A DNA stretch of 32,498 nucleotides, taken from positions 1 to 32,498 of the forward strand of contig JAMCSP010000028.1 of the NCBI GenBank assembly GCA_023378865.1. Direction: 5' to 3'. The notes under the pieces were generated by a model. That model was not told where the DNA came from, searched no databases, and saw only the letters and a list, made by a program, of their open reading frames with translations. The stretch is from Candidatus Parvarchaeota archaeon (lineage in GTDB: Archaea > Nanobdellota > Nanobdellia > Parvarchaeales > Parvarchaeaceae). Shown piece by piece: positions 7,620 through 14,767 of the stretch (within the stretch, counting starts at the first letter, position 1; the number at the start of each line of letters is the position of its first letter). The position numbers were made by a program, and so were the translations under genes.

Positions 7620-7687
7620 AGATTAAACGTTAAACATAAAATATATAAGTTTACTTTAATGTAATAGACTATCAATACTCGTATTGA

Positions 7688-7759
7688 GCCTCCGTAGCTC
7701 AGCGGTAGAGCGTCTGCCTTGTAAGCAGAAGGTCGCGGGGCCAGCACCCGTCGGAGGCT
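7688..7759 (+). tRNA. tRNA-Thr (anticodon TGT), no intron, non-canonical T-loop
   Basis: Cloverleaf folded by hand: acceptor gcctccg/cggaggc; D-arm gctc-agcggta-gagc; anticodon arm tctgc-cttgtaa-gcaga; variable aggtc; T-arm gcggg-gccagca-cccgt; discriminator t. Confidence 0.9.
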
Positions 7760-7770
7760 TATTTGGTAAT

Positions 7771-8496
7771 ATGAAAATAAAAGGAGTAATATTCGATTTT
7801 GACAACACGTTAATTAACTCTTCAAAAACAGTAGACGACGCTAATAAATTGGTTTTAAACAAAATACAGGAAGATTTTGAGACAATGGACCTGAAAACAT
7901 TTGACAGTATACTAGAAAAAACCCAGGAAAAGTTTGATAGAATTAATCCTCTTAAAAGATACAAAAGACTTTTCTATGAGCTATTCGCGGAAGAAAGCGG
8001 TCTTAACATTGATACAAAGAAGATAGACACTTACTCAGAAATTTTCGAGAGCCACCTTATCAACAGAATGGAATTTACGGAGGGGGTAGAAGAAGTATTA
8101 GAAGGGCTTAAAAAAATGAATTTAAGGATCGGTATACTAACCGGAGAAGGGTTATATCCCGGCCTTAAAAGAAGAACTCTGGATAAATTTGATTACAATG
8201 GAAAGTTCGATGTAAAGATAATTGCAATGGATAATATTCCTGAAAGCAAACATGATCCGGATGCATTTAAAAAGGCAGCTGCAATGCTCGAACTTAAAAC
8301 AGATGAGGTGCTATTTATTGGGGATACCCCTGAGATAGACATAGATAATGCAAAGGCAGCAGGTATGAAGACCGTGCTTTTTGACAAATACAACGAAGAA
8401 AAGCAGAAAAACTCTAAAAATAAGCCTGATTTTATAATAGAGGACTTACGTGGTATCTACAGAATATTAGACAGTTTAAATCAAGGATTAGCCTGA
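7771..8496 (+). CDS. HAD-superfamily hydrolase
   Basis: MKIKGVIFDFDNTLINS, ILTGE, KHDPDAFKKA, EVLFIGDTPEIDIDNAKAAGMKTV. The ORF-track start at 7684 lies upstream of the tRNA and is not credible; the ATG at 7771 is 11 nt after the tRNA. Confidence 0.92.
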   Translation: MKIKGVIFDFDNTLINSSKTVDDANKLVLNKIQEDFETMDLKTFDSILEKTQEKFDRINPLKRYKRLFYELFAEESGLNIDTKKIDTYSEIFESHLINRMEFTEGVEEVLEGLKKMNLRIGILTGEGLYPGLKRRTLDKFDYNGKFDVKIIAMDNIPESKHDPDAFKKAAAMLELKTDEVLFIGDTPEIDIDNAKAAGMKTVLFDKYNEEKQKNSKNKPDFIIEDLRGIYRILDSLNQGLA

Positions 8497-11609: not shown

Positions 11610-13022
11610 TTATAGCCCTCCGAGCGTGTTTAAAATTAATGAAGGAAACAGCCCAAATAGAAGAATAAAGAAAGAAAGGAATGACATAAAAAGCAGTTCA
11701 TTTTTTGAAAGGTCGGTTAAACCTGCAAAGGTCTTTTTCAACTGACCGAATAAGGACTGCTTGATTACCCTTAGGTAATAATTCGTAGAAAGCATTATGC
11801 CGAAGATAGCAATAAGAGATATGCCTGCAACTGCGTATGAGCCTACAAAGATCAGTAATTCTCCCGGAAAGTTTGATAATCCTGGAACTCCAAGACTTGC
11901 AAATATCCCAAAGATAAGGAAGAACGAAAGCAACGGCATCCTTGACATAAGCCCTCCCATTCTTTCAGTTTCATTTGTACCAGTCTTTTGCATGAGTATG
12001 TAGGATATCCCAAACAGCATTGTAATTATGAAGCCGTGACTTATCATTAAAAGAACCGATCCTGCAACTGCCAGATTAATGCCTGATGAAATACCAATAA
12101 ACACCAAAGACATGTAAAACATGCTTGAATAAGAAAGAAGCTTTTTAAGATCCTTTTGGCCAGAAGCGGTAAACGCGATGTAAATAGCGGTGAATACCCC
12201 TAAAGCTATCAGGGGTAATCTGAAATCTAAAAGAACGTTTCTGAAAAGTCCGAAGCCAAATAGAATAAATGCAAATCCTCCAAGCTTCGAAAGCACACTG
12301 GATAAAAGCATAGTTCCTGAAGAAGGTGAATAATAATAAGAGTCAAGAAGCCAGCCATGCAATGGAAAGATTGGCATTTTTATCATGACTGTTATTAAAA
12401 GCAGGAAAAAGGAAAGGTATTCTATGTACGAAGGCAAAAGCGACATTTTAGATGCAATAACAGAAAAGTTGAAGCTGCCTGTGTAAAGGAAAAGAAGAAT
12501 AAAAACTGCAAGAAGAGTAAGACTTCCGAATTGGGTAAATACAAGAAATTTCATAGCTGCCTTTTTACCTTTTTCAGGGTTACCCCACAGCCCTGTAATG
12601 AAAAACAGGGAAAGGACTGCAGCTTCCCAGAAAATAAAGAATACTATAAGATTTGATGAAACGAAAACAGAGATAACAGAAACGTATACTAAAAGGTAGA
12701 ATAGATAAAAAATACTTTTGCTTTGTTTTATTTCCTTAGCTGCAAAAAGAAATATTGCAATAGGAACTGTTACTGCCAGAAGAAGAAACGGAAAGGTTAT
12801 GAAATTTTCCTGCAATGAAAAAGAAAAGCTTATACTTGGATTTATACTTACATTAAAGCCTGAAAAGCCGAAGATAATGCCGAGAGCAAATAAAATAGCA
12901 TTTACTATCATTACCGAAAGTGTAATTATCTCCGTGGAAGGCAGCTTGTCATAGAATCTTTTTAGTATTAAAAAAAGCATCCCAATTGCAGGAACTACAA
13001 GAAGAAGAATTAAGCTTATCAT
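11610..13022 (-). CDS. nuoM: NADH-quinone oxidoreductase (complex I-type) subunit M
   Basis: FFIFWEAAVLSLFFITGLWG, KMPIFPLHGWLLDSYYYSPSSGTMLLSSVLSKLGGFA, LGVPGLSNFPGELLIF. Confidence 0.93.
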   Translation of the reverse strand: MISLILLLVVPAIGMLFLILKRFYDKLPSTEIITLSVMIVNAILFALGIIFGFSGFNVSINPSISFSFSLQENFITFPFLLLAVTVPIAIFLFAAKEIKQSKSIFYLFYLLVYVSVISVFVSSNLIVFFIFWEAAVLSLFFITGLWGNPEKGKKAAMKFLVFTQFGSLTLLAVFILLFLYTGSFNFSVIASKMSLLPSYIEYLSFFLLLITVMIKMPIFPLHGWLLDSYYYSPSSGTMLLSSVLSKLGGFAFILFGFGLFRNVLLDFRLPLIALGVFTAIYIAFTASGQKDLKKLLSYSSMFYMSLVFIGISSGINLAVAGSVLLMISHGFIITMLFGISYILMQKTGTNETERMGGLMSRMPLLSFFLIFGIFASLGVPGLSNFPGELLIFVGSYAVAGISLIAIFGIMLSTNYYLRVIKQSLFGQLKKTFAGLTDLSKNELLFMSFLSFFILLFGLFPSLILNTLGGL

Positions 13023-14767
13023 ATGAAAATCACCGCGATAAGGATTACTGCAACTAATCCTATTATAACTGCAGTTATGTACCTGAATGCATCTCCGTTT
13101 TCAATCTCCCTTGTTTTTGAAGAAAGAATAAAGGTAGATTCCGCCACTCTAGACATTGCATTTGAAAACATGAAGTCAAAACTTCCAACGTAAAAACCAA
13201 AGGTTGAGATAGCATTCCCGATTGCTATTATAAATTTCTCATATCCATAACCTGCAATTTTTTCTGCTATACCCTTAATTTTCTCAGTTAATTGCTGTGT
13301 TTTCCCAAGGTAAAAGAATTCATAGGAGATGAATAGCCCCAGCAAAGAAGCTGCAAGCGCTATAAATGAAAAAGCATCAAAGGAGTATGCAATGCTTATT
13401 ATGCCATTAAAGAAGTAAAGGAAAACTCCGCCGATTGTAGAAATTATTGAAAGAAGCACTATCGGAAAGAAAAGGTTAAATTCCTTTTTAAGAGGTTTTT
13501 TCGCCTTGCTCCTAAATATGACGAAGAAGGCTCTAAAAGAGAAAAGAGCAGTTAAAAAGGCAACAAAAACAAATGCTATGTTTTCAAATATATTGAAGTT
13601 ATGTGTAAGCGCCGAATGGGCAAAAAAGCTCATAAAAGGAGGTATTGCTGAAATCGAAGCAAAGCCTATTAACGCAGGGATTGTAAACCATGCCCCTTTT
13701 AACTTCTTACTACCTAATTCATAAACGTCATAAGTACCGAATGCAATTGCAAGTCCGCCGCTTATGAAGAAAAGCATGGATTTAAAAACAGCATGTGTAA
13801 ACAGGTAAAAAATCGCTCCACCCGCATTTAAGGTTCCTATAGCTAAGAACATGAAAGCAAGACTTTCTATTGTTGAGTATGCGAGTATCTTCTTGAAGTG
13901 CCTTTCCTTTAAGCCAAGCAACGCTCCTATGAAAGCTGTGATAAACCCTATGACAACTATCAAGTTAAGAAGGCCTGCGGCAGAGATGAGGGGAAGAAGC
14001 CTTACTAAAAGGTATGCACCTGCTGCAACCATTGTAGCAGAGTGAAGAAGAGAACTTACCGGGGTAGGGCCTTCCATTGCATCTATCAACCAGGTATAAA
14101 ACGGAAACTGTGCCGCCTTTGAAAGTCCTGCAACTGTAAAAAGAGACCCTGCGATTATCAATGCAGTCAAGGGCATGGAGGAAAGGGAGTTCAAAATAGA
14201 TGATATCGAAAAAGTCTTAAGCGTGGAGAAAACTACTACTAAAGCTGCAAGAAAGGCAAGATCTCCGATTCTTGTTATTATAAGGGCCTTCTTGCTGGAA
14301 ACTGCAGGGCCTTCCCTGTCATACCAAAAGCCTATCAAAAGATATGATGTTATACCGACAAATTCCCAGAATATAAAAAACAGAAGCAGACTATTTGACA
14401 TCACCAAACCAAGCATGGAGAATATGAAAAAAGACATCTCTGCATAAAATCTTGCATGCTTTTCTTTTCTCATGTAAACGCCAGCAAACATCAAAACCAT
14501 GACAGATATAAATGAAACAAGCAACGCCATGAAAAGCGTCAGGTTGTTTCCTATGAAGGAAAGAGAAAATGAGAAATTACTAAAGGAAAACCAGGTATAA
14601 CTTTCTATGATATTCTTATTGAAATACAGAATAAAAAAGAGAATAGAAAGGAGAAATGATATTACTGCAGCCGACAACGAAATCAACCAGCTTACATTTT
14701 TCCTTTCTCCCAATAAAGGAATCAAAATCGCAGAAATTAACAGCGGAAGAAGGATTAGATACAGCAT
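13019..14767 (-). CDS. nuoL: NADH-quinone oxidoreductase (complex I-type) subunit L
   Basis: FFIFWEFVGITSYLLIGFWYDREGPAVSSKKALIITRIGDLAFL, KAAQFPFYTWLIDAMEGPTPVSSLLHSATMVAAGAYL. Confidence 0.94.
   Translation of the reverse strand: MLYLILLPLLISAILIPLLGERKNVSWLISLSAAVISFLLSILFFILYFNKNIIESYTWFSFSNFSFSLSFIGNNLTLFMALLVSFISVMVLMFAGVYMRKEKHARFYAEMSFFIFSMLGLVMSNSLLLFFIFWEFVGITSYLLIGFWYDREGPAVSSKKALIITRIGDLAFLAALVVVFSTLKTFSISSILNSLSSMPLTALIIAGSLFTVAGLSKAAQFPFYTWLIDAMEGPTPVSSLLHSATMVAAGAYLLVRLLPLISAAGLLNLIVVIGFITAFIGALLGLKERHFKKILAYSTIESLAFMFLAIGTLNAGGAIFYLFTHAVFKSMLFFISGGLAIAFGTYDVYELGSKKLKGAWFTIPALIGFASISAIPPFMSFFAHSALTHNFNIFENIAFVFVAFLTALFSFRAFFVIFRSKAKKPLKKEFNLFFPIVLLSIISTIGGVFLYFFNGIISIAYSFDAFSFIALAASLLGLFISYEFFYLGKTQQLTEKIKGIAEKIAGYGYEKFIIAIGNAISTFGFYVGSFDFMFSNAMSRVAESTFILSSKTREIENGDAFRYITAVIIGLVAVILIAVIFI

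Follow-up and report, generated by a model that had tools for sequence, protein, structure and literature searches.

In the standard T-loop of tRNAs, the pair between positions 54 and 58 stacks on G53–C61 and extrudes Y60 and N59 from the loop (PMC7912444), and positions 54, 58 and 60 therefore define the fold. One survey of archaeal tRNAs states that U54 and A58 are able to pair in every case (PMC7668247); pairs of two purines at 54/58 have reportedly not been seen in bacterial or archaeal tRNAs (PMC7566577). Here, we describe a tRNA-Thr(UGU) gene with the T-loop GCCAGCA from a Candidatus Parvarchaeota archaeon (assembly GCA_023378865.1), a member of a group of tiny acidophiles; no description of a similar T-loop in archaea was found in the part of the literature that was searched. 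The window is the whole analysed stretch of 32,498 nt of contig JAMCSP010000028.1.

A complete cloverleaf without the canonical T54–A58 pair

The Rfam tRNA model (RF00005) matches the gene over its full length (58.6 bits, E 2e-10; gathering score 29), and the minimum free energy structure predicted by RNAfold for 7688–7759 is a cloverleaf (−31.3 kcal/mol). ARAGORN did not report a tRNA at these positions. The acceptor stem (GCCUCCG/CGGAGGC) is followed by U73 at 7759, and the stretch AGGUC lies between the anticodon arm and the T-stem (Table 1). The anticodon UGU, G1–C72 and U73 are as in related Thr tRNAs, the elbow bases G18, G19, C56 and R57 (A57) are present, and G53–C61 as well as G15 with C48 are retained. 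The trans Watson-Crick/Hoogsteen T54–A58 pair of the canonical T-loop is absent (G54/G58); by all features other than this pair, the gene is still a tRNA. The first-pass annotation of this DNA, made from the sequence alone, was right about the coordinates, the bases and a cloverleaf with GCCAGCA at 7740–7746, as the sequence, Rfam and RNAfold confirm. It held that only C56 of the conserved loop bases is kept, which overlooks A57. An intron hidden in the T-arm was ruled out, as the loop is exactly 7 nt with no extra sequence and the acceptor stem closes.

Table 1. Coordinates of the tRNA-Thr(UGU) gene, its parts and its neighbours in the window
Feature	Position	Strand	Evidence
Archaeal promoter-like element AAACATAAAATATATAAG (TATA-box type), 39–56 nt upstream of the tRNA	7632..7649	+	Upstream conservation
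tRNA-Thr(UGU) gene; full cloverleaf, CCA end not encoded	7688..7759	+	Rfam RF00005, RNAfold, near-identical orthologues
D-loop AGCGGUA in D-arm GCUC-AGCGGUA-GAGC; G18 and G19 are elbow partners of 55/56	7701..7707	+	
Anticodon UGU (reads ACA) within arm UCUGC-CUUGUAA-GCAGA	7720..7722	+	Sole Thr(UGU) among 43 tRNAs found
T-stem 5′ strand GCGGG (49–53)	7735..7739	+	
Non-canonical T-loop G54 C55 C56 A57 G58 C59 A60 (GCCAGCA, versus TTCRANY)	7740..7746	+	
T-stem 3′ strand CCCGU (61–65)	7747..7751	+	
HAD-family hydrolase gene, directly downstream; ATG start near 7771	7768..8496	+	NCBIfam HAD matches

We compared 118 tRNAs from three genomes of the genus, 43 of them from the window's genome. All 118 have C56, and all but the two variant Thr(UGU) genes have A58; apart from these two genes, T54 is missing only from one tRNA-Ala(UGC) each of the genomes G010 and G016, which has C54. 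Within the window's genome, tRNA-Thr(UGU) is the only tRNA without T54 and likewise the only one without A58. Position 55 is T in 34, C in 7 and G in 2 of these 43 tRNAs; it is not near-invariant, and C55 is consequently not a radical change. The earlier count of at least four altered near-invariant positions thus stands for 54 and 58 and falls for 55, and position 60 departs as well. Similarly, little weight attaches to the loss of the target for pseudouridine at 55 as something unique to this tRNA, as 9 of the 43 tRNAs lack U55. A further 55 Thr(UGU) tRNAs, sampled from the genus and its class, all have T54, A58 and Y60. Read from the sequences, the real departures are positions 54, 58 and 60 changed together: T54 to a purine, A58 to G or U, and Y60 to A.

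Smaller deviations occur elsewhere in the genus. C54 replaces T54 (CTCAAAT, CTCAACT) in the tRNA-Ala(UGC) of G010 (L263) and G016 (L245) and in the tRNA-Thr(CGU) of G012 (L096), which is another, milder departure at this position. G55 replaces U55 (TGCAAAT, TGCGANT) in tRNA-Phe of G000 (L021, L022) and in the Thr(UGU) tRNAs of G003, G016 and G019, and C55 is also found in several tRNAs.

Distribution and origin in one Parvarchaeota genus

Counting the window's own genome, 11 Parvarchaeota metagenome-assembled genomes (MAGs) of the genus have the GCCAGCA loop. The 72-nt gene is identical in 10 of them and differs at one position in G020 (71/72; U20 to C20). A second version, ATCATCA, is found in the genomes of two sister species (G010 and G017), where changes in the T-stem are compensated (GCGAG/CTCGC), and G18 and G19 of the D-loop are kept in all variant genomes. 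In another collection, a pattern scan found T-arms that match the two versions on 13 contigs; these come from separately named MAGs that bear Parvarchaeota or Nanoarchaeota in their titles. The first-pass annotation had argued that a single sequencing error could not account for the loop; ten other genomes have the gene, identical in nine and 71/72 in the tenth, and T-arms of the two versions lie on the 13 contigs of the other collection, so that sequencing error is excluded.

The remaining genomes in which a Thr(UGU) gene was detected have T54 and A58 (TTCAACT, TTCAATC, TTCAATT, TGCGACT, TGCGATT or TGCGAAT). These include the nearest relatives outside the variant clade, G016 (TGCGAAT) and G005 (TTCAATT). 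The Thr(UGU) gene of G021 appears to carry a short intron in its anticodon loop. In a CDC48 tree, the genomes with the GCC version form one clade (support 100/99), which includes G002, a genome in which a Thr(UGU) gene was not found. The genomes with the AUC version group together (100/100) and join the GCC group at 95/92, and G016 is the next branch outside both. Most simply, a single rebuilding of the T-loop took place in the common ancestor of this subclade of the Parvarchaeota genus.

The tRNA and CDC48 genes lie about 20–26 kb apart on the same contig in the window's genome and in G025, G009, G026, G013, G008 and G020. We found no evidence that a mobile element replaced the 3′ half of the tRNA, the two genes sharing a contig in several relatives. 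G001 has two copies of the variant tRNA, on contigs C4 and C33, the flanks of the first matching G026 and those of the second G007; two species may be mixed in this MAG.

Purifying selection on the variant gene

The HAD-family hydrolase gene downstream served as a fast-evolving yardstick of divergence among ten species with the GCC version. Amino-acid identity to the window's copy falls as low as 0.47, and the tree built from third codon positions is 8.9 changes per site long, a rough value because these positions are near saturation. Over the same ten species, the 7-nt T-loop shows no change and the whole 72-nt gene shows one. Rough as the value is, this divergence is far too great for a neutrally evolving loop to have stayed unchanged, and strong purifying selection on the variant tRNA since its origin is supported. 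The promoter-like element upstream is kept with few changes in all GCC-type genomes.

These data bear on whether the gene is a decayed copy, as the first-pass annotation had proposed among other readings. Its non-canonical loop and its omission by ARAGORN would suit a pseudogene, but the relaxed constraint expected of one is absent (no loop change and 1 of 72 overall, against 8.9 per neighbouring third position), the tRNA and its promoter-like element are both conserved, and no other Thr(UGU) gene was found. We consider decay exceedingly improbable.

Other features around the gene were also noted. The start codon of the hydrolase lies about 10 nt past the 3′ end of the tRNA (7759–7771), a junction kept in the GCC clade and not in G010 or G017. 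Immediately 5′ of the tRNA, at 7672–7687, an inverted repeat (TCAATAC-TC-GTATTGA) is present in a few close relatives and is unconserved in the clade; it scored no better than shuffled sequences. Further along the window (11610–14767, minus strand), two adjacent genes for NADH-quinone oxidoreductase-like subunits (M and L) are part of a longer run of minus-strand genes.

Decoding of ACA

The 43 tRNAs found in the window's genome include a tRNA-Thr set of GGU, CGU and a single UGU. Of the 376 Thr codons in the window's reading frames, 150 are ACA, more than any other; with one UGU gene found to read it, the variant tRNA should be indispensable. A second, canonical Thr(UGU) gene, which together with no expression of this copy the first-pass annotation had named as a sign of a pseudogene, was looked for and found neither in this genome nor in the variant relatives; G010 and G009 each gave a further Thr match, which is the CGU isoacceptor and was rejected as an extra copy. 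The assembly of the window's genome is 91% complete, and an unseen Thr(UGU) gene could lie in a gap or carry an unrecognised intron; it would then have to be hidden in all variant genomes.

Some bacterial tRNA-Gly serve in cell wall synthesis, and such tRNAs may be recognisable by features of ordinary tRNAs that they have lost. The first-pass annotation had offered a specialised tRNA as one reading. A task outside translation is very unlikely for the variant, as it is the sole gene found that could read a common codon, with no second Thr(UGU) gene found to take over decoding, and its orthologue in relatives is a canonical Thr(UGU) tRNA. Alternatively, the RNA could be edited or specially modified, resulting in a mature loop close to canonical. 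C-to-U editing of tRNAs exists in some archaea, but here the GCC group would require G-to-U and G-to-A, and the AUC group A-to-U and U-to-A, changes for which we know of no enzymes. The DNA data lend this suggestion no support, and we hardly credit it.

What stood of the earlier readings is that this archaeon tolerates an altered elbow: the variant occurs in 13 genomes, which span at least 13 species, apparently with a single origin and under purifying selection, as the sole Thr(UGU) gene found. Very probably, the gene encodes a functional and likely essential elongator tRNA-Thr(UGU) that decodes ACA with an altered elbow, a judgement that does not extend to the exact geometry. From the gene we infer that the tRNA is transcribed, threonylated and used by the ribosome; a threonyl-tRNA synthetase (ThrRS) gene is present in the genome.

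Modification enzymes and ThrRS

Pus10 makes the pseudouridines at positions 54 and 55 in archaea. None of the 28 genomes had a Pus10 match above the cut-off, and the weak matches that were checked were Cbf5, which is present. This absence is genus-wide and can only be a background factor; tolerance of bases other than U at 55, together with the failure to find Pus10, plausibly points to a permissive background. TrmI, the m1A57/58 methyltransferase, is present (PF08704 over the cut-off in 24 of 28 genomes), and in the PDB the G016 protein is best matched by methyltransferases of the TrmI type. A58 was thus lost in spite of the enzyme, and loss of TrmI was rejected as the cause of the variant loop. 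A57 is retained in both loop versions, with C at position 59; in tRNAs that lack A59, A57 is reportedly the sole target of archaeal TrmI (PMC7912444).

The archaeal editing domain PF08915 was found in the ThrRS of 0 of 28 genomes; the enzyme has a tRNA_SAD domain (L292 and its orthologues; L278 in G016), and the G016 protein (L278) has a TGS-like N-terminus. These features suggest a bacterial-type ThrRS across the genus. A change of ThrRS was rejected as the cause, because a thrS gene without PF08915 is common to the whole genus and does not track the variant. The genus-wide facts on Pus10 and TrmI leave unexplained why one clade and one isoacceptor changed.

Possible geometry of the elbow

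Across the two versions, position 54 is G or A, position 60 is always A and position 58 is G or U. Tentatively, we propose that a sheared R54·A60 pair would stack on G53–C61 with G19–C56 retained, leaving position 58 free. Because the sheared forms of A/A and G/A are isosteric (PMC7566577), this pair would fit both versions. Docking of the D- and T-loops through G19–C56 is plausible, since G18, G19, C56, A57, G53–C61, G15 and C48 are all kept. The R54·A60 model draws on little covariation, as there are three distinct variant sequences, and other folds could be accommodated.

One such fold would keep the standard T-loop and swap only the 54–58 pair, for a trans Watson-Crick/Hoogsteen G54·G58 in the GCC group and an A54·U58 in the AUC group. 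The G54·G58 pair would be analogous to the purine–purine A54·A58 with purine 60 of eukaryotic tRNAs. The A54·U58 of G010 and G017 is an inverted pair, however, not expected to be isosteric with G·G, and position 58 in the variants is not limited to one base class; as an account of the geometry, we think it rather unlikely. The loops could also kiss by short antiparallel pairing (G18–C56, G19–Y55 and Y20–R54) in place of an interleaved elbow. Such pairing can be written for all three variant sequences (GGU/GCC, GGC/GCC in G020 and GGU/AUC in G010 and G017), and with T54, Y20 would be unable to pair. Yet U20 pairs with any purine at 54, so that chance agreement comes easily, and Y20 is freely variable in tRNAs; this second geometry is improbable. 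Returning to the sheared R54·A60 pair, we consider it an evenly balanced proposition that, in one archaeal clade, a single isoacceptor that serves a cellular organism as an essential cytosolic elongator has no 54–58 pair and instead has an R54·A60 elbow maintained by selection.

Comparison with known tRNAs

A conserved, apparently indispensable elongator without the U54/A58 pair is a natural test of what the elbow is needed for in charging, passage through the ribosome and modification by TrmI. It also means that tRNA finders that assume the T-loop motif can miss an essential tRNA.

Among known tRNAs, the nearest parallels are two eukaryotic ones with A54·A58, the initiator tRNA-Met and tRNA-Ala(AGC). 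The eukaryotic initiator tRNA-Met has A60, and its A54-U55-C56 together with A60 match the AUCAUCA version. The variant differs in being an elongator Thr tRNA without A58, and the loop of the putative initiator of the window's genome (L061, with A1–U72) is canonical (TTCAAAT). The eukaryotic tRNA-Ala(AGC), an elongator with an A54·A58 pair, resembles the variant as a cytosolic elongator with purines at 54 and 60 (PMC7566577). It keeps a methylated A58 and has changed 15/48 to R15/A48, whereas the variant has G58 or U58, the ordinary G15–C48 and a short D-loop; the variant is not of the type with adenine at both 54 and 58, its bases there being G/G and A/U. Animal mitochondrial tRNAs with degenerate D- and T-loops are likewise working tRNAs without conserved T-loop bases (PMC4394434), but their loops drift and often lose G18, G19, U55 and C56, while the variant loop is frozen, keeps G18, G19 and C56, and belongs to a cellular archaeon. 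The canonical archaeal tRNA-Thr(UGU), the orthologue in relatives, shares the anticodon, acceptor type, U73 and D-arm; T54, A58 and Y60, present in all 55 sampled, are all three missing from the variant. What is new is the concerted change at positions 54, 58 and 60 in an otherwise known kind of molecule.
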